The notes under the pieces are model-generated. The model made no database searches. It saw nothing but the letters and a program-made list of their open reading frames with translations, and had not been told where the DNA came from. A program made the position numbers and the translations under genes. Shown here piece by piece: positions 2,365 to 47,581 of a DNA stretch of 64,000 nt (its first letter is position 1; each line of letters starts with the position of its first letter). Source of the DNA: Deltaproteobacteria bacterium (GTDB lineage Bacteria; SAR324; JACQKK01); the NCBI GenBank assembly GCA_029858505.1, contig JAOUEW010000001.1, positions 310,001-374,000 on the forward strand. The letters run 5' to 3'.

Positions 2365-2413
2365 GAGGCCTCTACATAGACCGGGTTTTTGCCGTGAAAA
2401 ATTCACCCGTCTC
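2365..2413. mobile_element. Short MITE-like element (family M), degenerate
   Basis: Left end GAGGCCTCTACATAGACC, internal GGGTTTTTGCCGTGAAAA, right end CGTCTC; flanks ACCAC/ACCAT (4/5). Confidence 0.5.
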
Positions 2414-2477
2414 ACCATCACTTAAAATCCCGGAACACGAAGAACACCGCCCCCATCAGGCACAGGCCCGCCCAGGC
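2414..2477. repeat. 64-bp direct repeat copy 2 (3' end of DUF486 gene)
   Basis: Matches 1408..1471, one mismatch. Confidence 0.95.
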
Positions 2478-2762
2478 GAAGTTCCAAGAGGGCTTCACGC
2501 CCATGTACAGGGCGGCGAACCCGGCGAACACCAGCAGGGTGATGACTTCTTGCATGATTTTGAGCTGGGGGAGGGAATATTGGGCGGCCCCCAGGCGGTT
2601 GCCCGGCACCTGAAAGCAGTATTCAAAGAAGGCAATGCCCCAACTGGCCAGCACCACCAGCCACAGGGGCTTGGTGTTCAGGTTTTTCAGGTGGCCATAC
2701 CAGGCAAAGGTCATGAACAGGTTGGAGATGGTGAGCAGCAAGATGGGGGCGTAGAGGGTCAT
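2418..2762 (-). CDS. DMT/DUF486 family small membrane protein
   Basis: MTLYAPILLLTISNLFMTFAWYGHLKN...; DUF486-like hydrophobic protein; internal ATG preferred over the ORF start at 2828. Confidence 0.8.
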   Translation of the reverse strand: MTLYAPILLLTISNLFMTFAWYGHLKNLNTKPLWLVVLASWGIAFFEYCFQVPGNRLGAAQYSLPQLKIMQEVITLLVFAGFAALYMGVKPSWNFAWAGLCLMGAVFFVFRDFK

Positions 2763-3013
2763 GGGTTGTACGGGGGAAAGGGATGTTTTGAGAATGAATG
2801 GAGTGGAACAGGGGTTTTGTGGGGCCAATGGGTTCGGTCTAGGGCCAGGGGCCAGAAACTAGGGCCAAGGGCCAAAAAGGGGGCCAAGAAGCAGAATGTA
2901 GGAAGCATGAAGGGGGGAGAGCAGGGAGAAGGAGAAAGCAAAAGAATAGTAAGGAGAATAGGAATAGGAAGAAGTAGGCCGGGCAAAGGAATGAAACCCC
3001 AGGGCCATACTCT

Positions 3014-3457
3014 TTACGATTCATCTCCCCTGCGCCGCTCCCGGTCCTGGTCGCGCTTTTTAATGGCGTCCCGCTTGTCGTGAAGTTTCTTGCCCTTGGC
3101 CAGGGCAATTTCTACTTTGGCGATGCCCCGGGTGAAATAGATTTTGGTGGGCACAATGGTCAGCCCCCGTTCTTTCACTTTTTGGTGCAGCTTGCGAATT
3201 TCCTCCCGTTTCAGCAGCAGTTTGCGCTTGCGGGTGGGGTCGGCATTAAAGCGGTTGCCATGGGAATAGGGCTGAATTTCAGCGCCGTGCAGGAACATTT
3301 CTCCCTGCTCCACTTGGCACCAGGCGGCGGTCAGGTTCACCTTGCCGTCCCGCAGGCTTTTCACCTCCGAGCCCACCAGCACGATGCCGGCCTCGTGTTT
3401 TTCCAGCAGTTCATACTCAAAGCGGGCCTTGCGGTTGTCCACCACCAACTTGCTCAT
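3014..3457 (-). CDS. smpB: SsrA-binding protein SmpB
   Basis: KLVVDNRKARFEYELLEKHEAGIVLVGSEVKSLRDGKVNL...HDKRDAIKKRDQDRE. Confidence 0.97.
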   Translation of the reverse strand: MSKLVVDNRKARFEYELLEKHEAGIVLVGSEVKSLRDGKVNLTAAWCQVEQGEMFLHGAEIQPYSHGNRFNADPTRKRKLLLKREEIRKLHQKVKERGLTIVPTKIYFTRGIAKVEIALAKGKKLHDKRDAIKKRDQDRERRRGDES

Positions 3458-3756
3458 GGCTTTGGGCCCTGGGAAAAAGCGATTCGAAAATGGGGTTTCC
3501 CAACGGCGCGAAACCGATTTGGGGCGGAATACGATCTGGGCTGATTTTACATGGCCTTTGGGGGGAACGCCACCGGGCGTTGGGGGGTGCCTTTTGACAG
3601 CGGAGAGCCTTCGTTCTACCCTTGGGTTTCCTTTCCAAGGCCAGGATGGGTAAGATGTGGCAGATTCATTCTTTCTGGCAGGACGGCGTTGGGCGGCAAT
3701 CGCCCCCCGAACCGGTCTTTAACGGTCGGTTATCCAAAAAAATCTTCTGATCTCAT

Positions 3757-6700
3757 ATGGTTAAGCAGACGCAGGGCCGGAAACAGGTGTTTTTGGAAGC
3801 CGAGAAGTTTGCCAGTGATTTAGCTCTCCTTTCCGGAAAGCGGCCGGATTTTCTGAAGGAAGACCTGGAAGGGGTGCTTTCCCCCGAGCGGGTGGACCAG
3901 GAAATCAGCCGTTTGCGCTCCTTGAGCGTGGATGAATACATCCGGGCCACGGTGAACCCCTCCGAAAACCCCAAGCGCAAAACCGCGCCCGAGGTGATCC
4001 GCCAGCTGGGGGGCCGGGTCATCAAAGAAATCTCCGACGGGCCGCTGTTTCTGGCCGAGGTGGAGTTTCAGCAGCCAGAGAACCGGCGGCGGCTGTTGTT
4101 TTTGGCCCAGAACCGCAAGAACAAGAACGGCGTGTGGATGCCCCACCACCACAACCGCGCCGCCGACCTGATCCGCTATTATTCCTCCTACGGTATGCCG
4201 GTGGTCACCTTCATCGACACCCCCGGGGCGGACGCCGGAGAAGAAGCCAACCGCCAAAACCAAGCCCACAGCATTTCTTGGCTCATCATGGAGATGGCCA
4301 ACCTGCAACTGCCCACGGTGGGGATCATCCTGGGCAACGGGTATTCCGGCGGGGCCATTCCCTTGGCCACCACCAACGTGCTGCTGAGCGTGCGAGACGG
4401 GGTATTCAACACCATTCACCCCATGGGCTTGGCCGAGATTGCCTACAACTACAATCTGTCGTGGCAAGAGTGCGCCAAGTACATGGGGGTATCTCCCTTT
4501 GAATTGTACCGCCAGGGGTACCTGGACGGCGTGGTGGATTACTCTCCCCTGGACGACCGCCCCCCCACGGCCCTGGCCCAGGCCATCTTTTCGGCGCTGA
4601 ACAGCATCGAGCAGCGCTCCGCCCAGATTTTACGGGACCCCACCTACGAGTTCTTTTTTCAGCACTACCAAGAATCCATTGGCCGGTACCTCAATCCCTC
4701 CCGGCTGCTGATCGAAGAAAACCGCATTTCGGAAAAAACCCCCACCGGAATGCTGAACGTGTTCGGTTCGGTGTACCGGTTTCACCGGTATTTGAAGAGC
4801 CGCCTGCGGCTTTCCAGCCAGAACACCCTGCGTTATTCCCGCGCGGGGCACGTGGATTCTCCCAAGGGTCAGCTGCTGGGCCGGCTGGAGGCCGACCGCT
4901 TGGACCGGTTCAACAAATGGCTGGCCGCCCCCCTGGAAGTGCGCTACGACGACGACCTGGCGGCCCGCTATAAAAAATTCTTAGACACCCTGCGGGAGCA
5001 GGGCACCGAACGCACCCGGCTGGCCAGCCTGTTTAAAGGCAACCCCGAAACCAATTATCGCCGGGCGGTGACCCGCCTGACCCAGGGGGTGGCCCTGTAT
5101 TTGTACAATTATTGGAAGGACCAGGCCCGCGACAACCTGGGGGCCTTGCTGGAACACGTGGGCGAAGGCACCGATGCGGCCCCCCCAGCCCCCCACGAAG
5201 CCAACCTGTTGAGCATCTTAAAACTCAAGCCGGTGGCCGAGTTGTTCCCCTGGGAGGTGCAAAACCTGATTCTGTTCGATCTGGCCTTCGACAAGATGCT
5301 GGACAACATTACCCTGACCGCCCGGGAACTGAAGGAAACCAACCAGATTACCCAGGAATCATTGGAAGGGCTGCTGGACAAAGTGGTGCACGAGGCCACC
5401 GAGGCCTTCCAAAGCGTTTACGCCGGAGAAACCGAAAAGGAAACCCGCGGAAACTTTTTGCGGTGGCTGGAAGGGTTTACCAGCCAGAAGACCACCGAAA
5501 AAACCATGCGGCAGATTAGCGAATGGAAGCGGTTGGCGTCTCCCCGCATTTCCGAGCCGCTGTTTGGCCTGATGGCCTATTTGTTTACCCACCTGCTGCC
5601 CTCGCTGTACCAGGCCCAGCGTGGAGAAAAACGCTTCGACGGCCGGATCAACCCCCGCAACATCGGCATCAAAGACTTCTGGAACCGTTTGTCTCAGGCC
5701 TACGACGACCTGCAGATTCAGACCATGCTGGCCGAATACAAGCGCACGGTGCGTATTCAACCCCAGCAATTGATCGAGACGTTCTTCCAAGGCTACGAAG
5801 AACTGAACGGCCACCTCATGACCTCGGACCCTGTGCGGTTCCCTGGGTTCCGTCAGTCCATCAACCGCGCTTTGGAAACCGGCATTCCTCCGGTGGGGGT
5901 GCTCACTGGCATCGCCTCCTTTAAGCACGAGGATATCTCCACCCAGGTGGGGGTGGTGGTGAGCAACACCAACTTCCAGGCCGGGGCTTTCGACATGGCC
6001 AGCGGCGAGAAGGTGTGCAAGCTGCTGGTGGAGTGCGCCAGCCGCCGCCTGCCGGTGGTGATGTTTATCTCTTCCGGCGGCATGCAGACCAAAGAGGGCG
6101 CGGGGGCCCTGTTCTCCATGAGCGTGCTGAACGACCGCATCACCCGCTTTGTGAAAGACATTGACCTGCCGGTGATCTGCTTTGGCTTCCGCGACTGCAC
6201 CGGCGGGGCCCAGGCCAGTTTTGTTACCCACCACTTGGCCAAGGTGTTTTACCTGTCGGGGGCGGTCATTCCCTTCGCCGGTCAACGGGTGGTGCCCAAG
6301 CACCTGCCGGTTCAGGCCATCCTGGCCAACTATTTGTCTCAAAACGAGGGCACCATGCACGGCCTGGTGCACAACCCCTTCGACCCCGGCCTGGACGACA
6401 AACTGCGGGAAATTGACCCCAGCATTCCCCTGCCCTCCGAGACCATTCCCCAGGCCATCGCCCGCATTCTGCGGGGCGAATACCAGGTGCATGAAGGCCT
6501 GGGGGGGCCGGCGGTGGGCCCGGTCATTTCCTTCGAACCGTTGCAGCGGGTGCTGATTCACGCCCGGGGCTGCACCGCGGCCCGGCTGGTGAAGGGGGCC
6601 CAAGACGCTGGGCTGGAAGTGGTGCTGGTGCAGTCAGACGCCGACATGGAAAGCCACCCGGCGGAAATGCTGCGGCCAAACGACCGTTTGGTGTGTTTGG

Positions 6701-8280
6701 GGGGCAACACGCCCCAAGAAAGTTACTTAAACGGCCTGTCGGTGATTCGCATTGCCGAGCAGGAAGACTGCGACGCCATTCACCCCGGTATCGGGTTCCT
6801 GTCGGAAAACCCCGACTTCGCCAAGCGCTGCCGCCGCCACGGCCTAAACTTTGTGGGTCCCAGCCACATCTCCATGGAGATGATGGGCAACAAATCCAAC
6901 GCCATCGCCACCAGCCGCCAGTCGGGGGTGCCGGTGGTGCCGGGCAGCCACGGGGTCATCACCGAACCCCTGGAAGCCAAAGCCATGGCCGATGAAATTG
7001 GCTACCCGGTGCTCATCAAGGCGGCCTTCGGCGGGGGGGGCAAGGGCATTCGGGTGGTGTACGAGCCCGACCAGTTCGTGGAGGCCTTTAACCGCACCAC
7101 CACCGAAGCCCTGGGGGCCTTTGGCAACGGCGACGTGTACCTGGAAAAATTCGTGGAGTCCATGCGCCACGTGGAGGCCCAGGTGCTGCGCGACAGCCAT
7201 GGCAACACCCGCATCATGGGCTACCGCGACTGCTCGGTGCAGCGCGACAACCAAAAACTGGTGGAGGAATCGGGCTCTTACAAATTTACCCAGCGCCACA
7301 TTGATGACGTGACCAAGGCGGCCGAAAAACTGGCCAAGGCGGTGGATTACGTGGGGGCTGGCACCGTGGAATACATTTACGACCGGGTGAACGATTCGTT
7401 CTATTTCATGGAAATGAACACCCGCCTGCAGGTGGAACACCCGGTGACCGAAATGGTGTGCGGTTACGACATCGTGGCGCTGCAGTTTGCCATTGCCCAG
7501 GGCAAGTCCATCGCCGACGTGAAGCCCCAGGTGAACGGTTACGCCATGGAAGTGCGGATCAACGCCGAGAAGATGGAAATACAGGCCGACGGCAAGGTGG
7601 GCTTTACCCCTGCCCCAGGGAAAATCTCCCGCATGGTTCTGCCGGAAGACAAGCGCGTGCGGGTGATTCAAGCCGTGAAAGAGGGCAAGCAAATTCCCCC
7701 CTACTACGACAGCATGGTGATGCAGGTGATTGCCCACGGCAAAGACCGGGAAGACGCCGTGGAAATTTTGCTGGCCTGGATGGATAAGCTGGTGCTGGAG
7801 GGGGTGTACACCAACACGGCCCTGATGATGGCCATTTTGAAAGACCCGGTGTTCCGCCAAGGCGACTACGACACGGGCTTCTTGAAGGGCTTTTGGGGGC
7901 GGGCCAGCCTAACCGCCATTCGGCAGGAAATGGAGCGGCGCTCCGGGGCAACCTCGGTGGCCATTGATAAAAACGCCATTCTGATCGAAGGCTCTCGCGA
8001 GTTGAAGGTGCTGGCCCCCCGCACCGGGGTGTTCTACGCCTCGCCTTCTCCAGACGAGCCGCCCTTCGTGGAGATTGGAGCGGAGTTCGAGGCGGCCAAG
8101 CCCCTGTGCCTGATGGAAGCCATGAAGGTGTTCGACAGCGTGTCGCTGGCAGACTTCAACAAGGCGGGGGTGGTGCTGTACGACCCGGCGGTGAAATACA
8201 AACTGGCCCGCCGCATGGCCGAGCCCGGCAAAACCGTGAACCAGGGCGACCTGCTGTTCGTGGTGGAACCGGTGGGCTGA
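3757..8280 (+). CDS. Single-chain biotin-dependent acyl-CoA carboxylase (CT-alpha, CT-beta, biotin carboxylase, BCCP)
   Basis: AccA-like ...VVTFIDTPGADAGEEA...GNGYSGGAIPLA; AccD-like ...FISSGGMQTKEG...IPFAGQRVV; BC ...AAFGGGGKGIRVV...EMNTRLQVEHPVTE; biotinylation site EAMKV. Confidence 0.92.
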   Translation: MVKQTQGRKQVFLEAEKFASDLALLSGKRPDFLKEDLEGVLSPERVDQEISRLRSLSVDEYIRATVNPSENPKRKTAPEVIRQLGGRVIKEISDGPLFLAEVEFQQPENRRRLLFLAQNRKNKNGVWMPHHHNRAADLIRYYSSYGMPVVTFIDTPGADAGEEANRQNQAHSISWLIMEMANLQLPTVGIILGNGYSGGAIPLATTNVLLSVRDGVFNTIHPMGLAEIAYNYNLSWQECAKYMGVSPFELYRQGYLDGVVDYSPLDDRPPTALAQAIFSALNSIEQRSAQILRDPTYEFFFQHYQESIGRYLNPSRLLIEENRISEKTPTGMLNVFGSVYRFHRYLKSRLRLSSQNTLRYSRAGHVDSPKGQLLGRLEADRLDRFNKWLAAPLEVRYDDDLAARYKKFLDTLREQGTERTRLASLFKGNPETNYRRAVTRLTQGVALYLYNYWKDQARDNLGALLEHVGEGTDAAPPAPHEANLLSILKLKPVAELFPWEVQNLILFDLAFDKMLDNITLTARELKETNQITQESLEGLLDKVVHEATEAFQSVYAGETEKETRGNFLRWLEGFTSQKTTEKTMRQISEWKRLASPRISEPLFGLMAYLFTHLLPSLYQAQRGEKRFDGRINPRNIGIKDFWNRLSQAYDDLQIQTMLAEYKRTVRIQPQQLIETFFQGYEELNGHLMTSDPVRFPGFRQSINRALETGIPPVGVLTGIASFKHEDISTQVGVVVSNTNFQAGAFDMASGEKVCKLLVECASRRLPVVMFISSGGMQTKEGAGALFSMSVLNDRITRFVKDIDLPVICFGFRDCTGGAQASFVTHHLAKVFYLSGAVIPFAGQRVVPKHLPVQAILANYLSQNEGTMHGLVHNPFDPGLDDKLREIDPSIPLPSETIPQAIARILRGEYQVHEGLGGPAVGPVISFEPLQRVLIHARGCTAARLVKGAQDAGLEVVLVQSDADMESHPAEMLRPNDRLVCLGGNTPQESYLNGLSVIRIAEQEDCDAIHPGIGFLSENPDFAKRCRRHGLNFVGPSHISMEMMGNKSNAIATSRQSGVPVVPGSHGVITEPLEAKAMADEIGYPVLIKAAFGGGGKGIRVVYEPDQFVEAFNRTTTEALGAFGNGDVYLEKFVESMRHVEAQVLRDSHGNTRIMGYRDCSVQRDNQKLVEESGSYKFTQRHIDDVTKAAEKLAKAVDYVGAGTVEYIYDRVNDSFYFMEMNTRLQVEHPVTEMVCGYDIVALQFAIAQGKSIADVKPQVNGYAMEVRINAEKMEIQADGKVGFTPAPGKISRMVLPEDKRVRVIQAVKEGKQIPPYYDSMVMQVIAHGKDREDAVEILLAWMDKLVLEGVYTNTALMMAILKDPVFRQGDYDTGFLKGFWGRASLTAIRQEMERRSGATSVAIDKNAILIEGSRELKVLAPRTGVFYASPSPDEPPFVEIGAEFEAAKPLCLMEAMKVFDSVSLADFNKAGVVLYDPAVKYKLARRMAEPGKTVNQGDLLFVVEPVG

Positions 8281-8348
8281 AAGGAAATTGCCCCCTGTGT
8301 CTTGACATTTTCAATTGAAAAGCGCCCAGATGATCTTAAGAGAATAGC

Positions 8349-8407
8349 GCCCTTGGCAGTAGGCTTATCCAATCATTCGGGATAGGCCGAGCCCAAGGGC
8401 ATTTTTT
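8349..8407 (+). terminator. Rho-independent terminator after the carboxylase gene
   Basis: GCCCTTGG..GGCTTATCC / GGATAGGCC..CCAAGGGC two-segment stem followed by ATTTTTT. Confidence 0.75.
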
Positions 8408-8596
8408 CAGGTAAATCCCATGAGCACGGCGATTTTAATTGATGGGGAGTTTTTTTAGGGGAATAGATTTTGTTTTGGATCCCATGTGGAATCCAATTCA
8501 GCCATCTTTGTTTGAGCATATTGATGGTTTGCGTTCAACCTGCCCAGATCCCGCGCGCAATAACTTTAATAACGTTGTAAATTCATCTCCCGTTGA

Positions 8597-9214
8597 ATGA
8601 ATTCCCACTCTCCCCTTTGCCTGGGCATTCTGGCCTCCCACGGGGGGTCGAACCTGCAGGCCATTCTAGATGCCATCGCCAGCGGTGGTCTGCCCGCCAA
8701 GGTGGGGCTGGTGGTCTCGAACAATTCCCAAGCCATGGCCCTGGAGCGCGCCCGCCGGGCCGGGGTGCCAGCCCTGCATGTTTCCGCCGCCACCCATGGG
8801 GGCCCCGAGGGGGCCGACCAGGCCCTTGCCCTGGCCCTGCGAAACCACGGGGTGAACCTGGTGGTGCTGGCGGGCTACATGAAAAAAATCGGCCCGGCCC
8901 TGCTGGGGGCCTTCCCCCGGCGCATCCTCAACATCCATCCGGCCCTGCTGCCCAAGTTTGGCGGCCAGGGGCACTTTGGCATCCATGTTCACCAGGCGGT
9001 GCTGGCCGCGGCCGAAAAAGAATCCGGCGCTACCGTTCACTTGGTGGATGGGGAGTATGACAAGGGGGCCGTGGTGGCCCAGGCCCGGGTGCCAGTGGAG
9101 CCGGGAGACACCCCGGAAACCCTGCAGGCTAGGGTGCTGAAGGTGGAGCATCAATTGTATCCCCAGGTGCTGGCCGCCCTGGCCAGGGGTGAACTGGACC
9201 TGGACCAACTGTGA
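8597..9214 (+). CDS. purN: Phosphoribosylglycinamide formyltransferase
   Basis: LGILASHGGSNLQAILDAI...VLAGYMKKIG...NIHPALLPKFGG...HLVDGEYDKGAVVAQ. Confidence 0.95.
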   Translation: MNSHSPLCLGILASHGGSNLQAILDAIASGGLPAKVGLVVSNNSQAMALERARRAGVPALHVSAATHGGPEGADQALALALRNHGVNLVVLAGYMKKIGPALLGAFPRRILNIHPALLPKFGGQGHFGIHVHQAVLAAAEKESGATVHLVDGEYDKGAVVAQARVPVEPGDTPETLQARVLKVEHQLYPQVLAALARGELDLDQL

Positions 9215-9329
9215 CGGGCCCTGGTCTTTCCCATTTTCCTCCCGCCGGATATAATGCATCGGTCCGCATTTCATTTCTCATGGCTTCAATCGCCATGATG
9301 ATCCCCTTTCATTTCCAACGGAATTCTCC

Positions 9330-10343: not shown

Positions 10344-10347
10344 CGCC

Positions 10348-15101: not shown

Positions 15102-15178
15102 GAGACCTCTTCATGACTAGGTTTTTTGGAGGGCAATAGGGGGCATAGCCCCCAATAAAATAGATATGCAGATGTTTC
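15102..15178. mobile_element. MITE-like element (family M), 77 bp
   Basis: Ends GAGACCTCTTCATGAC / GATATGCAGATGTTTC; perfect 5-bp flanking duplication AATAG (15097-15101, 15179-15183); internal GGGGGCATAGCCCCC. Confidence 0.85.
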
Positions 15179-15770
15179 AATAGGTATTGTACATGCGCTG
15201 AACGATGATATCGGCAAGGCGGTTGACCGCCAGTTCAATCCCCTGGTCCCGCAGGGCTGGGGTTTCCATGGTGAGAACGGTAAAGTCTAACCGTGCTGTG
15301 CCTTCCACCGGTTGATGGTCCAGCAGCACCCGGCCGTTGCGGCGGTCTCGCAGGGTCATGGTGCCAGAGAGGGTAAACTGAAAGGTATAGGCGTTGTTTT
15401 GAGAAATATCCCGGAACCGGGACACATCGAAGCGGGTCAGGTCTACCTCTAACACCAAGTCGCTGTCGTTGGGAGAGACCAAGTCGGCACTGCCAATGGC
15501 CATCACCCGCCGCTGCAGGGCCCGGTTCATCCGCAGGTCTAGCTCGCCCTGGAAGGTGTGGTTGGTCACGGACCCCAGGCCCAGGGTGGCGGCCTGGGCG
15601 GGAAGGCGGACGGTTTCCAGGCTGTACCCGCAACCCCCCAGGGCGGCCAGCCCCAGGGCCAAGGCGGCGGCTTGCAGCCGGAAGGTCCGCTTTGCAAAAA
15701 GGTTTTGCTTGGCCCTGGGCCAAGCATGGGGCCAAACACGGGGCAGAATGGTGGAGAGAAGCGTGATCAT
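15177..15770 (-). CDS. LptE-like outer-membrane lipoprotein
   Basis: Lipobox LGGCGYSL; VTNHTFQGELDLRMNRALQRRV...; stop codon lies on a MITE boundary. Confidence 0.75.
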   Translation of the reverse strand: MITLLSTILPRVWPHAWPRAKQNLFAKRTFRLQAAALALGLAALGGCGYSLETVRLPAQAATLGLGSVTNHTFQGELDLRMNRALQRRVMAIGSADLVSPNDSDLVLEVDLTRFDVSRFRDISQNNAYTFQFTLSGTMTLRDRRNGRVLLDHQPVEGTARLDFTVLTMETPALRDQGIELAVNRLADIIVQRMYNTY

Positions 15771-17819: not shown

Positions 17820-17935
17820 GGCGCCACACCATGGCAAACCCAGGGCTTTTGCCGTGAAAAGGGGAGAGGGGGCGAAGCCCCCAAAAAAAATCCCCCTGAC
17901 CCAGGGCAGGGGCAGGGGGATAGGAACAGCCGCAA
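17820..17935. repeat. Degenerate family-M-like segment
   Basis: GCAAACCCAGGGCTTTTGCCGTGAAAAGG...GGGGGCGAAGCCCCC...CAGGGCAGGGGCAGGGGGATAGGAA resembles the interior of the 37827-37951 element; ends not clear. Confidence 0.5.
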
Positions 17936-22375: not shown

Positions 22376-22482
22376 GAGACCCCTACAAAATCTGCGTCAT
22401 CTTTCCCCCATCCCTGAAGGATATGGGTTGATTCGGATGGATGATTTATTTATGGCAAAAACCCTGGTTATGCAGGGAACTC
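22376..22482. mobile_element. MITE-like element (family M), 107 bp
   Basis: Ends GAGACCCCTACAAAATC / GGTTATGCAGGGAACTC; perfect 5-bp flanking AAAAT (22371-22375, 22483-22487). Confidence 0.8.
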
Positions 22483-25891: not shown

Positions 25892-25960
25892 GAGACCTCT
25901 GCATCACCTGTTTTTTTCCATCCCCCATTCCCTCTTTTTACGGGAAAAACCCTGGGTCTC
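25892..25960. mobile_element. MITE-like element (family M), 69 bp
   Basis: Left GAGACCTCTGCATCACC, right ...CCCTGGGTCTC; flanks TATCG/TATCT (4/5). Confidence 0.7.
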
Positions 25961-27719: not shown

Positions 27720-27831
27720 TTTGTTCTTTGTTCTTTGTTCTTTGTTCTTTGTTCTTTGTTCTTTGTTCTTTGTTCTTTGTTCTTTGTTCTTTGTTCTTTG
27801 TTCTTTGTTCTTTGTTCTTTGTTCTTTGTTC
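27720..27831. repeat. Heptanucleotide microsatellite (TTTGTTC)x16
   Basis: 112 nt of perfect 7-bp units, counted directly. Confidence 0.98.
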
Positions 27832-27846
27832 TGGGCTGTCCCAGGC

Positions 27847-28302: not shown

Positions 28303-29541
28303 ATGATAAAACAGTGGGTTTTATTGCTGGCGGTGCTGTGCTGGGCCGGGTTAGGGGCGGGGGCTGCCCTGGCGGCCAGGGAGCTGGACCATGGTCTGGT
28401 GGCCTTGGCCGAAAAGCACTACGACAAAGCCTTGAAGCAGTTGCAGCCCCTGGCCGACCAAGGGGACCCGGTGGCTCAGTTTCACCTGGCCTGGATGTAT
28501 GAGCATGGCCAGGGGGTGAAAAAGGATCTGCGAGCGGCTTTTGTTTGGTATCAAAAGGCCGCCCTGCAGGGCAACGCCGATGCCATGAACAACCTGGGCG
28601 CGCTGTACCACACGGGAGAGGGAACCAAACAAAGCTTCAAACTGGCCGCCCATTGGTATCAAAAGGCCGCCGAACTGGGCCAGCCTCAGGCTTTCTTCAA
28701 CATGGCCATGATGATTTCGGAGGGCCAGGGATTCCGCCAAAGCGCCAAGGTGGCCGCCCAATGGCTGGACCGGGCCGCCCGCACCGATAACCTGGAGGCC
28801 CAATACCGCCTGGGCTTGATGTATGAGCAGGGAGACGGAGTGGCTCAAAACTTTGAAACCGCCGCCCAGTGGTACGAAGCCGCCGCCACCCGCGGCCATG
28901 CCCGGGCCAGCGCCAACCTGGGGGCGCTCTACCAAATGGGCCGGGGGCTGACCCGTTCTTATGCCGAGGCCGCCAAGTGGTATGCCATTGGGGCCGACAA
29001 GGGCGACCCCATGGCCCAAAACAACCTGGGGGCCTTGTATCAACAGGGGCGGGGGGTGGAAAAAGATCAAGCCCAAGCGGTGGAGTGGTTCCGCAAGTCT
29101 GCCGAGCAGCATTTTTTGGGGGGGGAGTACAACCTGGGGCTGGTGTATTATCAGGGCCGGGGGGTGGAAAAGGACCCCAGAGAAGCCTTCAAATGGTTTG
29201 AGCGGGCCGCCAACCAAGGGGACCCGGTGGCCCAAAACAACGTGGCCATTCAATACCAAAAAGGGGTGGGGGTCACCAAAAACCTGAAAAAAGCGGCCGA
29301 GTGGTATCGCAAGGCGGCGGAACAAAATTATGGGCTGGCCCAAATCAACCTGGGCACCATGTACCGCCGGGGGCTGGGGGTGCCCAGAGACCTGGAAAAA
29401 TCGGCCTATTGGTACCGCAAGGCCGAGGCCAACGGAATGCCCCAGGCCAAACAGGCCTTGGAAATGTTAAACCAGCCCATGCCTCCGGAAGAAGAAACCC
29501 CCCAGGGTGAAGACACTCCGGTGGAGGAATCGGCACCGTAA
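28303..29541 (+). CDS. Exported Sel1-like (TPR-related) repeat protein
   Basis: Signal peptide MIKQWVLLLAVLCWAGLGAGAALA; serial ...AQFHLAWMYEHGQGVKKDLRAAFVWYQKAALQGNADAMNNLGALYHTGEG... units. Confidence 0.92.
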   Translation: MIKQWVLLLAVLCWAGLGAGAALAARELDHGLVALAEKHYDKALKQLQPLADQGDPVAQFHLAWMYEHGQGVKKDLRAAFVWYQKAALQGNADAMNNLGALYHTGEGTKQSFKLAAHWYQKAAELGQPQAFFNMAMMISEGQGFRQSAKVAAQWLDRAARTDNLEAQYRLGLMYEQGDGVAQNFETAAQWYEAAATRGHARASANLGALYQMGRGLTRSYAEAAKWYAIGADKGDPMAQNNLGALYQQGRGVEKDQAQAVEWFRKSAEQHFLGGEYNLGLVYYQGRGVEKDPREAFKWFERAANQGDPVAQNNVAIQYQKGVGVTKNLKKAAEWYRKAAEQNYGLAQINLGTMYRRGLGVPRDLEKSAYWYRKAEANGMPQAKQALEMLNQPMPPEEETPQGEDTPVEESAP

Positions 29542-29978: not shown

Positions 29979-30045
29979 AAGACTTCTGCATAACCAGGGT
30001 TTTTTCCCTGAACAGGGGGAGTGGGGGGCGAAACCCCCAATAAAA
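29979..30045. mobile_element. Truncated family-M element (left end only)
   Basis: AAGACTTCTGCATAACCAGGGTTTTTTCCCTGAACAGGGGGAGTGGGGGGCGAAACCCCC; right inverted repeat not recognisable. Confidence 0.5.
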
Positions 30046-30641: not shown

Positions 30642-33170
30642 TTACGGGCTCAACTTCCACAGGTCGTTTAGATAGATCTGCGCTGGCGACACGGAATCAA
30701 AGCCCCACCCTCCGATCAGCCATAAATTTCCCGCTGCATCCGACCAAGCCTTTGGGGCACTTCTGGCCCCCGGAGTATTCGTAGCTGCGGGGGTTCCTTT
30801 GGTTCCATAGACCCCGGTGGTGTTTCCTGTGCTGCTGCCGCCCATCCAAGTCCAATTGGTACCGTCCCACTTCCATAGGTCGTTCAGACTTTTTAAGGCC
30901 CCCCCCGCGGAATCATAGCCGAATCCACTAAACAGCCAAAAATTCCCGGCGGAATCTTTCCAACCAATGGTATCCATTCTTGATCCCGGATTGTTGGTGG
31001 CGGCAGCCACCCCTTTTGTTCCAAAAACCCCAGCGGCATTGGCCGTGCTGCTGCCGCTCATCCAGGTCCAGTTGGTGCCATCCCATTTCCACAGGTCGTT
31101 CAGGTAGCCAGCTACCGCCAAGGAATCAATGCCAGGCCCTCCAAACAGCCACAGGTTTCCGGCAGCATCGGTCCAGGATGTTGAACTATACCTAGCGCCC
31201 GGATAATTGGCGGCGGCAGCCACCCCTTTTGTTCCATAAACCCCGGCGGAATTCACCGTGCTGGCACCGCCTATCCAGGTCCAGTTGGTGCCATCCCATT
31301 TCCACATGTCGTTATAATAGCCCAACGATCCGGACCCCCCAAACAACCAAGCATTTCCTGCGGCATCTTTCCAAGTAGTCACGCGTTGTCTGGCCCCCGG
31401 CACGTTGGCGGCGGCGGTTACCCCCAAGGTGCCATACACACCGGTCGCATTCACCAAGTTGCTTCCACTTACCCAGGTCCAGTTGGCCCCATCCCACTTC
31501 CACAGGTCATTCAGGTTGCCTATCCCGGTCCCTGAGTCATAACCCGTGCCCCCAAACACCCATACATTCCCCGCGGCATCCAACCAATTCTCCGAATATG
31601 CTCTTGCTCCAGGCATGTTGGCGGCGGCGGCGGTTCCTTTGGCCCCATAGACCCCGGTGGTGTTTCCTGTGCTGCTGCCACCCATCCAGGTCCAGTTGGT
31701 GCCATCCCATTTCCATAGATCATTCAGATAGACGACCGTGGCTGCTGAGCCATAGCCATATCCGCCAAACATCCAGAAATTCCCCGCTCCATCCACCCAA
31801 GTGATGGGACTATGCCTGCTGCCCGGCTGGTTGGTGGCGGCGGCAGTTCCTTGGGTCCCATAGACTCCAGTGACATTCCCTGTGCTGCTTCCGCTCACCC
31901 AGGTGGTTTGCATCACCACGTTCAGCGGGGTGAAGGCGGTCACCGCCCCGCTGGTGGCGGTGATGGTGCTGGTGCCCACCCCGGCGTAGGCCACGGTGGC
32001 CAGTCCGGATGCGTTGATGGTACTAGACGCAGTGTTGCTGCTGGTCCAGGTGGCCGTGTAGCCGTAGGTAGGTAGGGGAGCCACCGTGGTATCTGAGAAC
32101 GTTCCGGTGGCCGTGTATTGCTGGGTCTGACGAGTGAGGATGGTGGCATTGGCCGGAGAGAGGGTCATGCTCAGCAAGTTGGGGTTGCCCACAGTGAGGG
32201 TGGCGGTTCCCGTCTTTCCGCTGGCCGGGTCGGTGGCGGTGATGAGGGAAGTACCCGTGATGTTTCCGGTGTTGATGGCGGTGGCCAAGCCAGAGGTGCT
32301 GACAATGGTGGCGTTGGTGGCGGTGCCGCTGGTCCAGGTCATCAGGGTGGTGATGACCCCGGTGGTTCCATCAACAAAATTTCCCATGGCGGTGAGCTGC
32401 TGGCTGGTGCCCCTTGGCACGGTGACCGGGGTCACGGCAATGCTGACAAGGGTGGGCATATCCACGGTGAGGGTGGAGGTATTGCTGAAACCCCCGCTGG
32501 TGGCGGTGATGACGGACGTGCCGGTGATGGTCCCCGTAGAAGGCAACGAAGCCAACCCGGTGCTGTTGATGGTAGCGTTGGCCGGGGTGCCGCTGCTCCA
32601 GGCGATGGTGTTGTAGGCGTTTGGCAGAGTGCGATTCATGCCATCGTTGTAGGCCCCCGTGGCGGTAAACTGTTTGGTGGTGCCCCTGGGCACCAAAGTG
32701 GTCGCCGGAGCCACCGTGATGCCGGTGAGGTAGGGGGTCACGGTCACATTCACCGTGGGTACCAGCGATGGATTGGGGGTGGGGGAGTTATCGGTGGCCT
32801 TCAAGTCGAAGGAATCCGCCCCGCTTAACGCCGTGTTAGGAGTATAGGTGCCCGTGAAGGTAAACGTATAACCGCTGGTCATGTTGCCCGTGGTGGTGGC
32901 CAGGGTAAACGCCGAGAGCGTGCCCTTGGTGGGGGCCTTGACCGCCGCCAGGGTCACCACCGGGCTGTCGGTGTCGGTGACCGTGTAGGTGAGGGTCACC
33001 GGCACGTTGGCCGGGGTGGTCACCGCCGCCGGGGGGGCGATGTCTGGGCAATACAGACAGGTGGGCAGCAGGTGATCCGTTCCCCGGTACACCTTGGGAA
33101 TTTGGCAACCAGACAAGACCAGCAGCAGGGTTAGGGAGACAGGCAGAAAAACACTGCGAAGAGAAAACAT
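30642..33170 (-). CDS. Lipoprotein with Ig-like (BIG2-type) domains and six C-terminal kelch/galactose-oxidase-like repeats
   Basis: Lipobox VLSGCQ; repeated PRGTTKQFTATGAY.../ATINSTGLA units; six LNDLWKWDGTNWTW..G(S)STGN..GVYGTKG..AA.N.PGAR....W.DAAGNLWLFGG units. Confidence 0.85.
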   Translation of the reverse strand: MFSLRSVFLPVSLTLLLVLSGCQIPKVYRGTDHLLPTCLYCPDIAPPAAVTTPANVPVTLTYTVTDTDSPVVTLAAVKAPTKGTLSAFTLATTTGNMTSGYTFTFTGTYTPNTALSGADSFDLKATDNSPTPNPSLVPTVNVTVTPYLTGITVAPATTLVPRGTTKQFTATGAYNDGMNRTLPNAYNTIAWSSGTPANATINSTGLASLPSTGTITGTSVITATSGGFSNTSTLTVDMPTLVSIAVTPVTVPRGTSQQLTAMGNFVDGTTGVITTLMTWTSGTATNATIVSTSGLATAINTGNITGTSLITATDPASGKTGTATLTVGNPNLLSMTLSPANATILTRQTQQYTATGTFSDTTVAPLPTYGYTATWTSSNTASSTINASGLATVAYAGVGTSTITATSGAVTAFTPLNVVMQTTWVSGSSTGNVTGVYGTQGTAAATNQPGSRHSPITWVDGAGNFWMFGGYGYGSAATVVYLNDLWKWDGTNWTWMGGSSTGNTTGVYGAKGTAAAANMPGARAYSENWLDAAGNVWVFGGTGYDSGTGIGNLNDLWKWDGANWTWVSGSNLVNATGVYGTLGVTAAANVPGARQRVTTWKDAAGNAWLFGGSGSLGYYNDMWKWDGTNWTWIGGASTVNSAGVYGTKGVAAAANYPGARYSSTSWTDAAGNLWLFGGPGIDSLAVAGYLNDLWKWDGTNWTWMSGSSTANAAGVFGTKGVAAATNNPGSRMDTIGWKDSAGNFWLFSGFGYDSAGGALKSLNDLWKWDGTNWTWMGGSSTGNTTGVYGTKGTPAATNTPGARSAPKAWSDAAGNLWLIGGWGFDSVSPAQIYLNDLWKLSP

Positions 33171-36745: not shown

Positions 36746-36797
36746 GGTTGGATTCTCCAAAAGGAAGGTGAAAAGGATGAAAGGAAAAAAAAGGGTG

Positions 36798-37607: not shown

Positions 37608-37656
37608 TCTGTTGGCTCTTTTCTGTTGAGGCTTAGAGACTTCTGCGTAATCTATG

Positions 37657-37826: not shown

Positions 37827-37951
37827 GAGCGTTTTGCATGACCAGGGTGTTTTCCAAAAATAAGGGGGCATGGGGGCGAAGCCCCCCATAAACTAAACCC
37901 CTTTCCCTGGGGGCAGGGGGATGGGAATAAAATGGGAGATGCAGAGGTCTC
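37827..37951. mobile_element. MITE-like element (family M), 125 bp
   Basis: Left GAGCGTTTTGCATGACC, right GATGCAGAGGTCTC; perfect 5-bp flanking TAGTT (37822-37826, 37952-37956); internal GGGGGCGAAGCCCCC. Confidence 0.85.
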
Positions 37952-38787
37952 TAGTTTTCTTTCACCCGGGCCAGGGGGGGCGGCAGCCGCCAGATGTCTT
38001 CATCGGGGATGGGCATCATGGGATACAGATTCAGGGGATCGCCCCGCAGCAGGTCAGAGATTTTCACAAACCCGTCCACCAGCCGGTCCAGGTGGCGGGG
38101 GGGCTTTTGGAGAGAGAACAGGGTGGTGTGGAAAGGTTTCAGGGCCGCCAGGTCGTCTAAGCGGGGCAACGTGAGCAGGGGGAAGGATTGGGTCTTCTCC
38201 ACGTAGCGGTTGAAGGCCAGGGGGTTCTCGGAGAAATTGTTGATCACCCCCAACATGCGGGCGGGGAAGTGAAACTCGTGGCCGCCAATCAGCACCGCCC
38301 GCACCATGCGGTTCAGCACGAACAGCGATTCGGGGGCTTCGGTGGTGACCCCGATGACCCAATGGGCTTTGCGCAGCAGGGGGGCAATGGCACTGTCGAA
38401 GCGGTCGTCACCCACGTCGAACAGCACCACCTGATACAGAGCCGTGAGGTGGTGGGTCTGAAAGTAATGAAAGGCTTCGTCCAGCACGCCCCCATAGGCC
38501 CCGGTGAGCAGGTTCGAGGGGCCCAACTCCAGCACGTCCAGATAGGGCGTGGCCGCCCGAACGATGGCTTCTGGCTGTAGTTTATCGTAGGCAAAGTTGT
38601 TGCGCTCCAGCCCTTCCATCAGCGAATCCCCCCGCTCTTTCATCAGCGACAACACGGTGTCTTGCTTTTGGTCGCAGCCCACCAGCAGGGTTTTAATGCC
38701 CACGTAAGACAGGGCCATGGCCGTGTGCACGGCCACCAGGGTTTTTCCCGTGCCGGATTTTCCGCAAATGGCCACCAGTTTGGTCAT
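37951..38787 (-). CDS. P-loop ATPase of the ParA/MinD/NifH-like (SIMIBI) class
   Basis: MTKLVAICGKSGTGKTLVAVHTAMALSYVGIKTLLVGCDQKQDT; layout as in NifH/BchL/CooC-type ATPases. Confidence 0.8.
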   Translation of the reverse strand: MTKLVAICGKSGTGKTLVAVHTAMALSYVGIKTLLVGCDQKQDTVLSLMKERGDSLMEGLERNNFAYDKLQPEAIVRAATPYLDVLELGPSNLLTGAYGGVLDEAFHYFQTHHLTALYQVVLFDVGDDRFDSAIAPLLRKAHWVIGVTTEAPESLFVLNRMVRAVLIGGHEFHFPARMLGVINNFSENPLAFNRYVEKTQSFPLLTLPRLDDLAALKPFHTTLFSLQKPPRHLDRLVDGFVKISDLLRGDPLNLYPMMPIPDEDIWRLPPPLARVKEN

Positions 38788-40519: not shown

Positions 40520-40651
40520 GAGACCTTTGCATAACCTATTTTTTCCCATCCCCCTACCCCCTTCCCTGGGGGAAGGGGGATGATTTTATTGGGGGGCTAA
40601 GCCCCCCATTCCCCCCTTTCACGGCAAAACCTCGGGTTATGCAGAGGTTTC
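40520..40651. mobile_element. MITE-like element (family M), 132 bp, inserted in a family-F repeat
   Basis: GAGACCTTTGCATAACC / GGTTATGCAGAGGTTTC (15/17 inverted match); flanks GCATT/GTATT. Confidence 0.85.
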
Positions 40652-40842: not shown

Positions 40843-40867
40843 TGCCAGCCCAAAAATTGCCTGGGCC

Positions 40868-42490: not shown

Positions 42491-42505
42491 GGGTTTTGTC
42501 TTCCG

Positions 42506-43318
42506 TCAGTCTGGTGTCATCCAGGTTTTGGCCATCAACTTCAGGTGCTTTTCTTTTCGCGCGCCGGGTTTTTTGTTCCCCAACAATTCAGCCACCTCAT
42601 CCCGGGTCAGTCGGCGGGATTCTCCCGGGTTCAGGTCTCCCAGAATTACCGGCCCCACCTGCCAACGCTTTAATTTCAACACCCGGTGCCCCATGGCCAA
42701 AAAAAACTTCTTCACATGGTGCTTCATGCCTTCCCGCAGGGTCAGTTCTACCCAGGTTTTGTCGTTCACCGTGTGCAGCACCCGGGCCTTGGCCGGGCGG
42801 TGCCGAACGCCTTCAATGACGGGCGCCTTGGCGTGGCGGGCCAGGGCGGGCGGGTCTACCAGCCCTTTCACCTTGACCAGGTAAATCTTGGCCATGCCGT
42901 GGGCGGGGTGGGCCGCCCGTTGGGCCAGGGCCCCATCGCTGGTCATCAGGATCAAACCTTCCGCATCATAATCCAGTCGGCCCACAGGAAACAACCTTGT
43001 CTTTGTTTTGGGTAAATAATCCCGCAGCGAGGGGCGGCCTTGGGGGTCGCTGAGGGTGGAGACCACCCCCTTGGGTTTGTAGAGCGCCCAGGTTTCTTGG
43101 TTGGCGGGGGCCGCCAAAGACACCGGGCGGCCATCCACCGACACTTGATCCAAGCCGGGGTGAACCAGGTCTCCGGGGCCGGCGGTGCGGCTGTTGATGG
43201 TCACCCGGCCATCGGCAATCCAGCGCTCGGCTTCTCGCAGGCTGGCCAGGCCCGCTTTGGCCATGGCTTTGTGCAGGCGGATGCCCTCGGTTTCGGGCGG
43301 GGTGTGGTCGGTGGTCAT
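42506..43318 (-). CDS. rluB: RluB/RsuA-family pseudouridine synthase
   Basis: IRLHKAMAKAGLASLREAERWIADGRVTIN S4 domain; LYKPKGVVST...PVGRLDYDAEGLILMTSDG. Confidence 0.9.
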   Translation of the reverse strand: MTTDHTPPETEGIRLHKAMAKAGLASLREAERWIADGRVTINSRTAGPGDLVHPGLDQVSVDGRPVSLAAPANQETWALYKPKGVVSTLSDPQGRPSLRDYLPKTKTRLFPVGRLDYDAEGLILMTSDGALAQRAAHPAHGMAKIYLVKVKGLVDPPALARHAKAPVIEGVRHRPAKARVLHTVNDKTWVELTLREGMKHHVKKFFLAMGHRVLKLKRWQVGPVILGDLNPGESRRLTRDEVAELLGNKKPGARKEKHLKLMAKTWMTPD

Positions 43319-44037
43319 GGGGTGATTTCCCCCCGTTCCATGGATTTCAGGGCCCCCTGGGCGGCCATTTGCTCGGCTTGTTTTTTGTTGCGGCCTTGCC
43401 CCCGGCCCAGTTCTTTGCCCTGGAACACCACCGCGATGGTGTACCACTTGTCATGGTCGGGGCCGTGGGCTTCAACCACCCGATATTCCACGGTGTCGCG
43501 GTGGCTTTTTTGCACGATTTCCTGCAGCCGGGTCTTGAAATCATAGGTGAGGGTTTGTTCCGCCACGGCGTCGAGCCGGCGGCTGAATAGCCTGGCCAGC
43601 CAGTCCGATACCGCCGTCAGGCCGTGGCTGCCGCGGCTGTCTAAATACACGGCGGCCACCACGGCTTCCAGGGCATCGGCCAGAATGGAGTCTTTTTCTT
43701 TCCCCCCCGAACGCTCTTCCCCCCGGCCCATCCGCACCATGCCGCCCAGGCCCAGCTCACGGGCCACCTCGGCCAAAGACGATTCGCTGACCAGCGAGGC
43801 CCGCATTTTCGACAGCCGCCCCTCCCGCTCGGCGGGAAATTGAGCCATCAACAATTCGCTCACCACCAAAGACAGCACCGCGTCTCCCAAAAACTCCAGC
43901 CGCTCGTTGTGGGTGGGGGCTTCTTGGGGGTTCTCGTTGCAATAGGACTTGTGGGTCAGGGCGTCGGCCAGCAAGGCGGGGTTGTGAAAGCGGTATCCCA
44001 GGTTGAACGGCGTGGGGCTGGAGGAGGGAGTGCTCAT
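43315..44037 (-). CDS. rnc: Ribonuclease III
   Basis: ALTHKSYCNENP...HNERLEFLGDAVLSLVVSELL; C-terminal dsRBD; ATGA overlap with rluB. Confidence 0.95.
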   Translation of the reverse strand: MSTPSSSPTPFNLGYRFHNPALLADALTHKSYCNENPQEAPTHNERLEFLGDAVLSLVVSELLMAQFPAEREGRLSKMRASLVSESSLAEVARELGLGGMVRMGRGEERSGGKEKDSILADALEAVVAAVYLDSRGSHGLTAVSDWLARLFSRRLDAVAEQTLTYDFKTRLQEIVQKSHRDTVEYRVVEAHGPDHDKWYTIAVVFQGKELGRGQGRNKKQAEQMAAQGALKSMERGEITP

Positions 44038-44098
44038 GAGAAAACAAAGCCCGTGGAGGGAAAAGGAAAGAACGCTGGGGAAGGACGGAAACTTTGGC

Positions 44099-45253
44099 TT
44101 AGGCCCCTTGGGGGTTGGCCATGGGAAGGGTGACCACAAAGGTGGAGCCAGAACCTGGCTGCCCCAGCACTTCCACCTTTCCGTGGTGGGCCGCCACGAT
44201 TTCTTGCACCACGGTTAACCCCACCCCCATGCCGCCCCCCATGAAACTGTTTTTCGATGAGTGATGATACATGGTGTCGGTGACCTCGTAAAACATCTGG
44301 AATATTTTTTCTTTTTCCTCGGGGGGAATGCCCACCCCGGAATCGGCCACCTCAAAAATCATTTGGTTGTCTTGCTGGCGCCCGCCAATCCGAATGTTCC
44401 CGCCGTTGGGGGTAAACTTCACCGCGTTTTCCACCAGCTCCCACACCACTTTTTTAAATTTCATCCGGTCGGCGGTAAACAGCAGTTCGGGGTCCATGTC
44501 GAGATTCACCTGCAAGCCGCGCTCTTGAATAATTATGGACAACTCATGCAGAATTTCCTCGCACAATGGCCGCAGCGGAAAACGAGAAGGGTTCAGCGCC
44601 AGCCGCATCTGCCCCAGCTGAGACAGCTCGTGCATCTGCCCCACGATTTCAGACAGGTGCTGGGCGGATCGCCCCAGAATTTTCACCATGTTTTCCGCTT
44701 CCCTCCCGGCCATTTCTTGAGAGAGGATTTCCACCACGTTTGAGATAATGCTAACCGGGGTGCGCAGCTCGTGGCTGGTAATGGCGATGAACTTTTCCTT
44801 CATCAGGTTCAGTTCTTCCAGATCGCGGGCTTTGGCCACCAGCCGGCGGTTTTCTTGCTGAGAGTAGATTTTCTCCAGGCATTTCTTAATGACGAACTCA
44901 GCCCGGTTAAAGCTGATGGGTTTGGTGATGAACTCGTAGGCCCCGGCCTTCATCATTTCCACCGCGATTTCGATGGTTCCCTGGCCAGTGGTCACGATAA
45001 TCTCCACCTCTGGCTGCTCGCTTTTCATGGTGTGCACCAGCTCTTGGCCGGTCATCATCGGCATGGTCAGGTCGGTGATGAGCAGCTGGTAGGGCTTGCG
45101 GCGGGCCATCTCTAGGGCCTGCTGGCCGTTTTCGGCCAGGTCGGCCTCCAGCCCCCAGCGGCGCAGGAAGCGATCCCAAATGGTGCGGATGGGGGCTTCG
45201 TCCTCCGCCACCAGGATGGACGTCTTGGTGTTTAGGTTGGTCATCACTTCCAC
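44099..45253 (-). CDS. Receiver-histidine kinase hybrid
   Basis: Receiver ILVAEDEAPIR...LLITDLTMPMM...TKPISF then AITSHELRTPVSII...ELVENAVKFTPNGG...GGGMGVGLTVVQEIV. Confidence 0.93.
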   Translation of the reverse strand: MEVMTNLNTKTSILVAEDEAPIRTIWDRFLRRWGLEADLAENGQQALEMARRKPYQLLITDLTMPMMTGQELVHTMKSEQPEVEIIVTTGQGTIEIAVEMMKAGAYEFITKPISFNRAEFVIKKCLEKIYSQQENRRLVAKARDLEELNLMKEKFIAITSHELRTPVSIISNVVEILSQEMAGREAENMVKILGRSAQHLSEIVGQMHELSQLGQMRLALNPSRFPLRPLCEEILHELSIIIQERGLQVNLDMDPELLFTADRMKFKKVVWELVENAVKFTPNGGNIRIGGRQQDNQMIFEVADSGVGIPPEEKEKIFQMFYEVTDTMYHHSSKNSFMGGGMGVGLTVVQEIVAAHHGKVEVLGQPGSGSTFVVTLPMANPQGA

Positions 45254-45662
45254 GGATTTACCTCATGTCAATCGAAGGCCCAAAAACAAAGAGATTGAGT
45301 TAAGTTGTTCTCCACCCGGCAGATTCCTTCCAGACTATCCAAAAATCGTCCGGTTTCAAACCTCTTTCCCCAAAAACCGGCCCGGCTTGGTTTGGGATAA
45401 AAACCCACCCCGTGAGTGTCGCCGATATAAAAAACGCCCACCGTTTTATTCTATTGTTATTCTTGGCAAATATAAACAAATGAAAAAAATATGTTGCCAA
45501 AAACAAACCTCCGGCCAATCCTGATATACAACAAAACGATGGCGGGGGGAGATTCGTCTCCGGCGGAGAAAATCAGGAGCTGGGTTTAGGCCTAGGGCTA
45601 GGTACCGGGTGAGAGAAAAAAGAATGAAGAGAATTGAGAGAAAGAAATAGGGGAGGGTGAAG

Positions 45663-45989
45663 ATGGCGCTGGATGAGAAGGGACGAGAGGATATGGGGCT
45701 GGATGAATTGTATCAGGTGATTCTGCGGCGGCGGGCCCAAAACCCCCAGGGCAGCTACGTGGCAAACCTGTCGGCCCAGGGAGAAGCCGCCATGCTGCGC
45801 AAAGTGGGGGAGGAATCTCTGGAGGTGATTCTGGCGGCCCGGGAAGCGGACCCCGGCCCCCTGGTGCATGAACTGGCCGATCTGTGGTTTCATCTGCTGG
45901 TGTTCATGGCCCACCGGGGCATTACCCCCGCCCAGGTACAGGCCGAACTGGCCCGCCGCCGCAAAGGAAGCGAAGGGGTTGCTCCCTAA
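45663..45989 (+). CDS. hisE: Phosphoribosyl-ATP pyrophosphatase
   Basis: LDELYQVILRRRAQNPQGSYVANL...KVGEESLEVILAA...ELADLWFHLLVFMA. Confidence 0.93.
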   Translation: MALDEKGREDMGLDELYQVILRRRAQNPQGSYVANLSAQGEAAMLRKVGEESLEVILAAREADPGPLVHELADLWFHLLVFMAHRGITPAQVQAELARRRKGSEGVAP

Positions 45990-46335
45990 AGCACCCCTCC
46001 CTGGCGGCTTAGGCCGAAGGGTGGAGATAGAATCCGCTCGAAAGAGGAGACGGAAAGGAAGCGAGCGCATAACCCGTCGGACTCGGGTTGTTCCCCAACG
46101 GCACCCCTCCCTGGCGGCATACGCCGCCTGTCCCTCCCCATCGTGGAGGGACAATACGGCTTAGGCCGAAGGGTGGAGATAGAATCCGCTCGAAAGAGGA
46201 GACGGAAAGGAAGCGAGCGCATAACCCGTCGGACTCGGGTTGTTCCCCTCCACGAAGGGGAGGGGATGCCCCCGCAGGGGGCAGGGGAGGGGTGTTCTGG
46301 GGATGCCCGGCAGGGGTGCTTCATGGAGGGACTCT
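45990..46335 (+). repeat. Dispersed family-F array: A-B-A-B' with perfect 92-bp A modules (46005-46096, 46157-46248)
   Basis: CGGCTTAGGCCGAAGGGTGGAGATAGAATCCGCTCGAAAGAGGAGACGGAAAGGAAGCGAGCGCATAACCCGTCGGACTCGGGTTGTTCCCC occurs twice at 152-bp offset. Confidence 0.95.
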
Positions 46336-46441
46336 ACGGCAGTGCGAATAAATGAAACCCAGAGTGAATCAACGTATTTAATGTTTTCAGATTTTCTATG
46401 TCAGCCTATTTGTTGTTCATTCTAACCAAAAGAAAGAAACC

Positions 46442-47428
46442 ATGGCGCAGAAATTTTCGTTGTTTGACCCGCTGGTGATGGAACCTTTTAAGTGCCGCAA
46501 CCGGGTGGTGTTTTCTCCCTATCAAGAAAACATGGCCAACCGAGACGGCACGGTGTCTCCCCATTTGTTCAGCCACTACTTGTCGGCGGCCCGCGAGGGA
46601 GCGGGGCTGGTCATTCTGGAGTCGGCCTACGTGGCCCGGCAGGGCCGGGGCACCTACAACCAACTGGGCATTTCAGAAGAAATCCACCTGGAGGGCCTGT
46701 TCCGGCTGGTGTCGGCCCTGAAGGCCGAAGGCGCCAAGGTGGGCATTCGCCTGTCTCACGCCGGGGCCAGGACATCGGAGGAAATTTGCGGTGAGCAGCC
46801 CCTGGGGCCCTCGGTGATGAACCTGGGAAAAGACTTTACCCAAAACCGCGAGATGGACGAGGACGACCTGGAGGAATTGATTCTGCTGTTCATCCACGCC
46901 GCCGAACGGGCCGAAGAAGTGGACGCCGACCTGATCGAAATCAACGGCTCTCAGCAGTATCTGCTGGACCAGTGCCTTTCCGCCCGCTACAACAACCGCT
47001 CCGATGCCTTTGGCGGAGAGATCAAGGGGCGAATGCGCTTGGCGGTGGAGATCATCAAGGCCATCAAAAACCGCACCTCGGCCAAGACCCCCATCTCTTA
47101 CTATTTTTCCATCCACGACAAACTGGAAGACGGCTTCGACGAGAAGGAGCTGAAAGACCTGTTGAAAACGTTGAACGACGCCAAGGTGGATTTTCTGCAC
47201 CCGGTTTCGCTGCACGTGATGAACAAGTTCTTCGATGCCGACCTGACCCTGGTGGAGTGGGTGAACAAATTCGCCAAACAGCCCATCATCGCCGACGGCA
47301 ACCTGAAGTCTCCTCAAATTTTAAAAGAGGTGATGGCGCTGCAATCGGCCGATCTGTTTGCCCTGGACCGCACTTTGTTCTCCCGGCCCAATTGGCTGGC
47401 CTTTCTGCAAAAGAAATTCGTGGAGTAA
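46442..47428 (+). CDS. Old-yellow-enzyme-like NADH:flavin oxidoreductase
   Basis: FDPLVMEPFKCRNRVVFSPY...LSHAGARTS...INGSQQYLLDQCLSARYNNRSDAFGG. Confidence 0.88.
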   Translation: MAQKFSLFDPLVMEPFKCRNRVVFSPYQENMANRDGTVSPHLFSHYLSAAREGAGLVILESAYVARQGRGTYNQLGISEEIHLEGLFRLVSALKAEGAKVGIRLSHAGARTSEEICGEQPLGPSVMNLGKDFTQNREMDEDDLEELILLFIHAAERAEEVDADLIEINGSQQYLLDQCLSARYNNRSDAFGGEIKGRMRLAVEIIKAIKNRTSAKTPISYYFSIHDKLEDGFDEKELKDLLKTLNDAKVDFLHPVSLHVMNKFFDADLTLVEWVNKFAKQPIIADGNLKSPQILKEVMALQSADLFALDRTLFSRPNWLAFLQKKFVE

Positions 47429-47449
47429 CCCCTGCTGAACGGGAAGGTG

Positions 47450-47581
47450 GACGGTTTTGCATAACCTAATTTTTCCCATCCCCCCGCCCCCTTCCCCCAG
47501 GGAAGGGGGTTGATGATATGGGGGGGCTTCGCCCCCCAATCCCCCGTTTCACGGCAAAAACCTGGGTTATGCAGCGGTCTC
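47450..47581. mobile_element. MITE-like element (family M), about 132 bp
   Basis: GTTTTGCATAACC ... GGTTATGCAGCGGTCTC; same interior as 40520-40651 (TTTTTCCCATCCCCC...GGGGGGCTTCGCCCCCC...TTTCACGGCAAAAACC); target duplication not clear. Confidence 0.75.

Follow-up and report, generated by a model that had tools for sequence, protein, structure and literature searches.

The described systems closest to the element reported here are BrickBuilt and MITEPgRS/MITE464 of Porphyromonas gingivalis, whose ends, GAGACCTTTGCA or GAGACTGTTGCA, match those of the IS5-family elements ISPg1, ISPg9 and ISPg4 (PMC4596501). These elements are non-autonomous, intergenic and thought to be moved in trans. ATR of Neisseria meningitidis is, as cited in the same source, also a MITE with IS5-family ends (ISNme1 end GAGACCTTTGCAAAA), but it differs from the element described below in its A/T-rich interior, its 19 copies and the phylum of its host (PMC4596501). 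Correia, ERIC, Chunjie and QMITE resemble our element in being mostly intergenic, hairpin-forming and present in high copy number with truncated copies, and a review of prokaryotic MITEs describes the same kind of element (PMC10969869).

We describe here a MITE family from the 2.79-Mb draft genome of a SAR324 bacterium (G000), with emphasis on one window of 64,000 nucleotides (positions 310001-374000 of contig C4). The family shares with the P. gingivalis elements all the properties listed above, whereas its interior consists of two G/C-rich hairpins rather than 23-nt or 41-nt tandem repeats. It is present in about 100 copies as opposed to about 20, and its target duplications are uniformly 5 bp whereas those of P. 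gingivalis are irregular (CT, GAAA, AAAAA). Furthermore, the full-length IS resides in the same genome in P. gingivalis but appears to have been lost from G000. Judged by description rather than by alignment, Correia, ERIC, Chunjie and QMITE have other ends, duplications and parent families than the SAR324 MITE. Literature searches returned the 12-mer core GAGACCTTTGCA but not the exact 17-mer ends and, within the library searched, no paper on SAR324 dealing with a MITE and a transposon. The family represents a new instance of a familiar type of element, and adds a well-documented MITE to the little-described mobile-element content of SAR324.

Copies in the window

The original prediction, made from the bare sequence, placed seven MITE-like elements with 17-bp inverted ends and two degenerate pieces in the window. 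All seven lie at the predicted positions, with the extents and flanks given in Table 1, and both pieces are real. As predicted, three of the seven pairs of flanks are perfect 5-bp duplications and another three match at four of five positions. The end motif GAGACCTCTGCATAACC, allowing at most 3 mismatches, occurs nine times in the window, compared with 0.14 expected (at most one per shuffle in 100 shuffles). The same threshold gave 124 matches over the whole of G000, compared with 2 for a reversed-pattern control. The ends are thus far more frequent than chance would give, and the original observation is confirmed; its reading of the copies as MITEs is supported.

Table 1. Copies and fragments of the MITE in the window (window coordinates).
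Feature	Position	Strand	Remarks
MITE copy	2365..2413	-	49 bp, strongly deleted; target duplication ACCAC/ACCAT (4/5)
MITE copy	15102..15178	-	77 bp; perfect 5-bp duplication AATAG
Internal MITE fragment, no terminal repeats	17842..17926	-	Profile positions 24-115; C4:327842-327926, E 1.6e-10; predicted at about 17820
MITE copy	22376..22482	+	107 bp; perfect duplication AAAAT; interior degenerate
MITE copy	25892..25960	+	69 bp; only GGTCTC left of the right end; TATCG/TATCT (4/5); profile match
One-ended MITE fragment	29979..30045	-	Has GGGGGGCGAAACCCCC hairpin; far end not recognisable
Solo terminal repeat GAGACTTCTGCGTAATC	37636..37652	+	Followed by a (TTTTCTC)n tract; missed by the original prediction
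MITE copy	37827..37951	-	125 bp; perfect duplication TAGTT
Full-length MITE copy	40520..40651	+	132 bp; GCATT/GTATT (4/5); second-best profile match of the genome
Full-length MITE copy	47450..47581	+	132 bp; outermost bases of the left end decayed; flanks AGGTG/GGTTT without a convincing duplication

The family in G000

A profile was built from the alignment of 22 longer paired copies, which have a 132-bp consensus (GAGACCTCTGCATAACCTATTTTTTCCCATCCCCCTGCCCCCTTCCCTGGGGGAAGGGGGnTGATTTTATTGGGGGGCTTCGCCCCCCATTCCCCCTTTTCACGGCAAAAACCCGGGTTATGCAGAGGTCTC), and gave 103 matches on the contigs of G000. MITE copies at positions 3915, 59888 and 67620 occur on both contig C6 and contig C11, so that three of the matches are probably duplicate counts and the assembly probably contains one stretch in two copies. 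The further copies on which the original prediction depended thus number about 100. They are 49-186 bp long, lack a transposase gene and have a mean pairwise identity of 0.79. Roughly half of them measure 71-107 bp; these keep both ends and have mostly lost one or both internal hairpins, in agreement with the internal deletions that had been proposed from the lengths, and the deletion joints often lie within C-runs. Short size, lack of a transposase gene, terminal inverted repeats, duplications of constant length and many dispersed copies are all features by which MITEs are recognised. The longest end pair around the end sites fetched from G000 spans 597 bp and consists of two neighbouring MITEs; none encloses an interior of transposase size. 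The MITE itself had no match in viral contigs, phages or plasmids.

Target duplications were scored in 51 well-supported pairs, taken from stretches around end sites in G000 and therefore missing pairs far from such sites. Perfect 5-bp duplications flank 18 of the 51, and 30 agree at four or more positions, while not one pair has a perfect duplication of length 4 or 6. When left flanks were paired with the right flanks of other elements, identical 5-mers averaged 0.55, with a maximum of 4 (2000 trials). The duplicated 5-mers are rich in A and T; A prevails at their beginning and T further on.

Three MITE copies contain, at comparable internal positions, another repeat, the REP-like hairpin GCGCTGTCCAGCGGGGCCAATATTCAGGCATCTTGGCCCCGCCTTTCGCACC, which is also found free-standing elsewhere (L192, G000:C5:69229; L196, C14:237522; L190, C1:155286; L194, C9:2223; L198, C4:65059). 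It is a nested repeat that was perhaps moved by a REP-type transposase.

Ends shared with IS5-family elements

The ends, which were not recognised in the original prediction, can now be assigned: IS5-family elements that encode NF033581-type transposases have GAGACC(T/C)(C/T)TGCA as their end. Ends closely similar to those of the MITE are found in the published IS5 elements ISPg1, ISPg9 and ISNme1 (PMC4596501, Table 2). A full-length IS with these ends, which the prediction proposed to look for, is absent from G000, but a related one is present in G008, a SAR324 cluster bacterium of the same family and a different genus (contig JACZSY010000162.1). This IS (locus L031) is 1185 bp long and has the ends GAGACCTCTGCATTACC / GAGACCTCTGCAAAACC, which start with GAGACCTCTGCA. 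Its 334-aa transposase scores 307 bits against NF033581 (IS5 family; cut-off 140) and contains the Pfam domains DDE_Tnp_1 and DUF772. A second full-length relative, with ends GAGACCTTTTCATAAGCCC, was found in G006 (L120), again in a genus other than that of G000. Both resemble the MITE in the 12-bp end core, which is GAGACCTCTGCA in G008 and the related GAGACCTTTTCATAAG in G006, and differ from it in their autonomous size (1185-1189 bp) and in interiors that the MITE does not share. No homology is visible between the MITE interior and that of any IS, so the match is limited to the ends.

Five distant, plasmid-borne IS5 relatives with 39-44% identical transposases, from Solidesulfovibrio, Desulfolutivibrio, Moraxella (ISAba23), Azospirillum and Rhizobium, have related ends, GAGACC-like in the Desulfovibrionaceae, Azospirillum and Moraxella, and exact 5-bp duplications (ATATC, ATATA, AAAAA, ATTCC and GCATG). 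Clean 5-bp duplications are not visible at L031, at L120 or at one copy of ISAba23 (L146).

A more direct connection is found in G003, a member of the same family as G000 and of a different genus. Locus L042 (232 bp) joins the MITE end GAGACCTCTGCATAACTGG to the start region of a transposase, in which an AGGAGG resembling a ribosome-binding site precedes a short reading frame. In L040 (about 360 bp) the same start region runs into the C-terminus of a transposase, LLVMVFILKRMTLLEAAA, and the end GAGACCTCTGAATAACC, and a matching transposase remnant, FLLVMAFNIKRMTVLEAPA, lies in L052. L042 and L040 are copies of an IS5-family element that have lost internal parts, and the end of this element is the MITE end. 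An intact NF033581-type transposase was found in neither G000 nor G003, the latter having fragments only; this concerns present mobility rather than descent. In G000, whose assembly is 97% complete, there was no match to the G008 transposase, PF01609, NF033581 or DUF772. The link to IS5 is shown through the relatives and through the deleted IS copies of G003, and the earlier suggestion that the elements move in trans is supported.

Distribution among relatives

With 58 relatives searched, all from outside the genus of G000, the MITE profile gave 55 matches in G003, the only one noted with the element, and none in the other 56. The copies in G003 have a mean pairwise identity of 0.93, compared with 0.79 in G000, and most of those examined are flanked by perfect 5-bp duplications. 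The family therefore looks old in G000, whereas the near-identical copies of G003 look like the product of recent activity. The two genomes form a pair in which recently active copies can be set beside copies that seem to be decaying after transposase loss.

One G003 copy has an inserted repeat, GTCCAGCACCAGCACAGCCCTGCGTTGTGTC...GGCTGGTGCCTTTCTTT, which also occurs elsewhere in that genome (L038:280-506 and the end of L052). In G056, from outside the class, 37 ends GAGACCTTTGCATAACC were found on elements with a different interior made of GATTCTTCACTACGTTCAG / TTTGTCATTCTGA repeats (L034, L035, L036 and L045), and the genome holds just a transposase fragment. We rejected these as copies of the same MITE. 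Their different interior and the lack of a profile match make them a parallel case: a MITE-like family independent of the present one, with similar IS5-type ends.

Origin and mobilisation of the family

The ends and the 5-base target duplications together point to an IS5-family transposase as the mover. We consider it very likely that the copies belong to one MITE family, mobilised in trans by an IS5-family transposase that is now lost, and the lost enzyme would have belonged to the NF033581 subgroup (DDE_Tnp_1 and DUF772). On this reading the 17-bp ends would be the recognition ends of a cognate IS of about 1.2 kb with ends GAGACCTCTGCATAAC(C/T), and its transposase would bind and cut the MITE ends in trans. 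The target, mostly A/T-rich DNA between genes, would be cut with a stagger of 5 bp, and joining of the element to these cuts would leave the 5-bp direct repeats; these catalytic steps are modelled on the known chemistry of DDE transposases. The founder was probably a 132-bp element made of two end repeats and a C/G-rich double-hairpin interior, whose copies would later have lost parts of the interior, with the remaining joint often in C-runs. G000 would represent a stage without the transposase, in which the copies drift apart, and G003 a more recent amplification of the same element. The IS partner of the G000 copies may either be lost or lie within the unassembled few percent, and loss is favoured because the copies in G000 have diverged. 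This ties the MITE to one particular subgroup of IS5, whose stagger is 5 bp.

That the common ends are due to chance or to assembly artefacts is refuted by the motif counts in the window and in G000, and by the presence of the same element in the independent genome G003. It also seems highly improbable that a transposase of another family, still encoded in G000, moves the elements by cross-recognising IS5-like ends. The persistence of 103 profile matches in a genome without a PF01609, DUF772 or NF033581 match fits such a scenario, and the transposase search in G000 covered some families rather than all. However, no end pair around the end sites fetched encloses an interior large enough for a transposase, and the lower identity among the copies in G000 than in G003 is what would be expected once activity had stopped.

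A different kind of explanation is that the element is a functional extragenic repeat under selection, a mobile terminator or RNA-processing hairpin whose terminal repeats act as an RNA stem. Both strands fold with the two ends forming a stem around the hairpins, the single-strand folds are very stable (z -2.2 to -8.7), and a hairpin with trailing T-rich sequence is found at window positions 40557-40579. The inverted repeats account for this fold, which is no evidence of an RNA function. Moreover, covariation in the stems does not exceed that of shuffles (score 0.069 vs 0.072; 5 vs 5.8 double-change pairs), an Rfam search matched no family, the internal hairpins are gone from many copies, and the target duplications are those of transposition. 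With genes predicted by a simple codon-usage gene finder, none of 60 examined elements lies inside a gene, which speaks for the transposon reading. Their placement relative to gene ends could be read in favour of a function: a gene end within 10 bp of the facing element or overlapping it was seen for 10 of 61 3' ends compared with 1 of 59 5' ends. Such a preference for gene 3' ends is, however, also expected from tolerated insertion, and we regard selection for an RNA function as very improbable.

A stop codon at the element junction or close to it was seen in six cases, two of them in the window. The gene at 15177-15662 (-) ends in a TGA made of the last T of the AATAG duplication and the GA of the element end (T|GA), and that at 37951-38787 (-) in a TAG made of the TA of TAGTT and the G of the element end (TA|G). 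Junction stop codons are easily made because the ends begin with GA, so no selection is needed to account for them. It is very improbable that the roughly 100 copies were kept after transposase loss because they serve the host as portable gene ends, supplying a junction-spanning stop codon together with a terminator-like hairpin. Mobilisation in trans by a lost IS5-family transposase is the reading we retain, and the main use of the family lies in annotation and in repeat masking of metagenome assemblies.

Other features of the window

A perfect heptanucleotide tandem repeat, TTTGTTC x16, lies at 27720-27832 between predicted genes, upstream of the gene at 28303-29541 (+), where it may possibly provide phase-variable spacing. 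The gene at 30642-33170 (-), with Kelch and Big_2 domains, contains two 213-bp repeats (31460-31904). The 1507-aa reading frame at 3757-8280 combines acetyl-CoA carboxylase carboxyltransferase, biotin carboxylase and biotinyl domains in a single chain, a fusion that is, to our knowledge, unusual.
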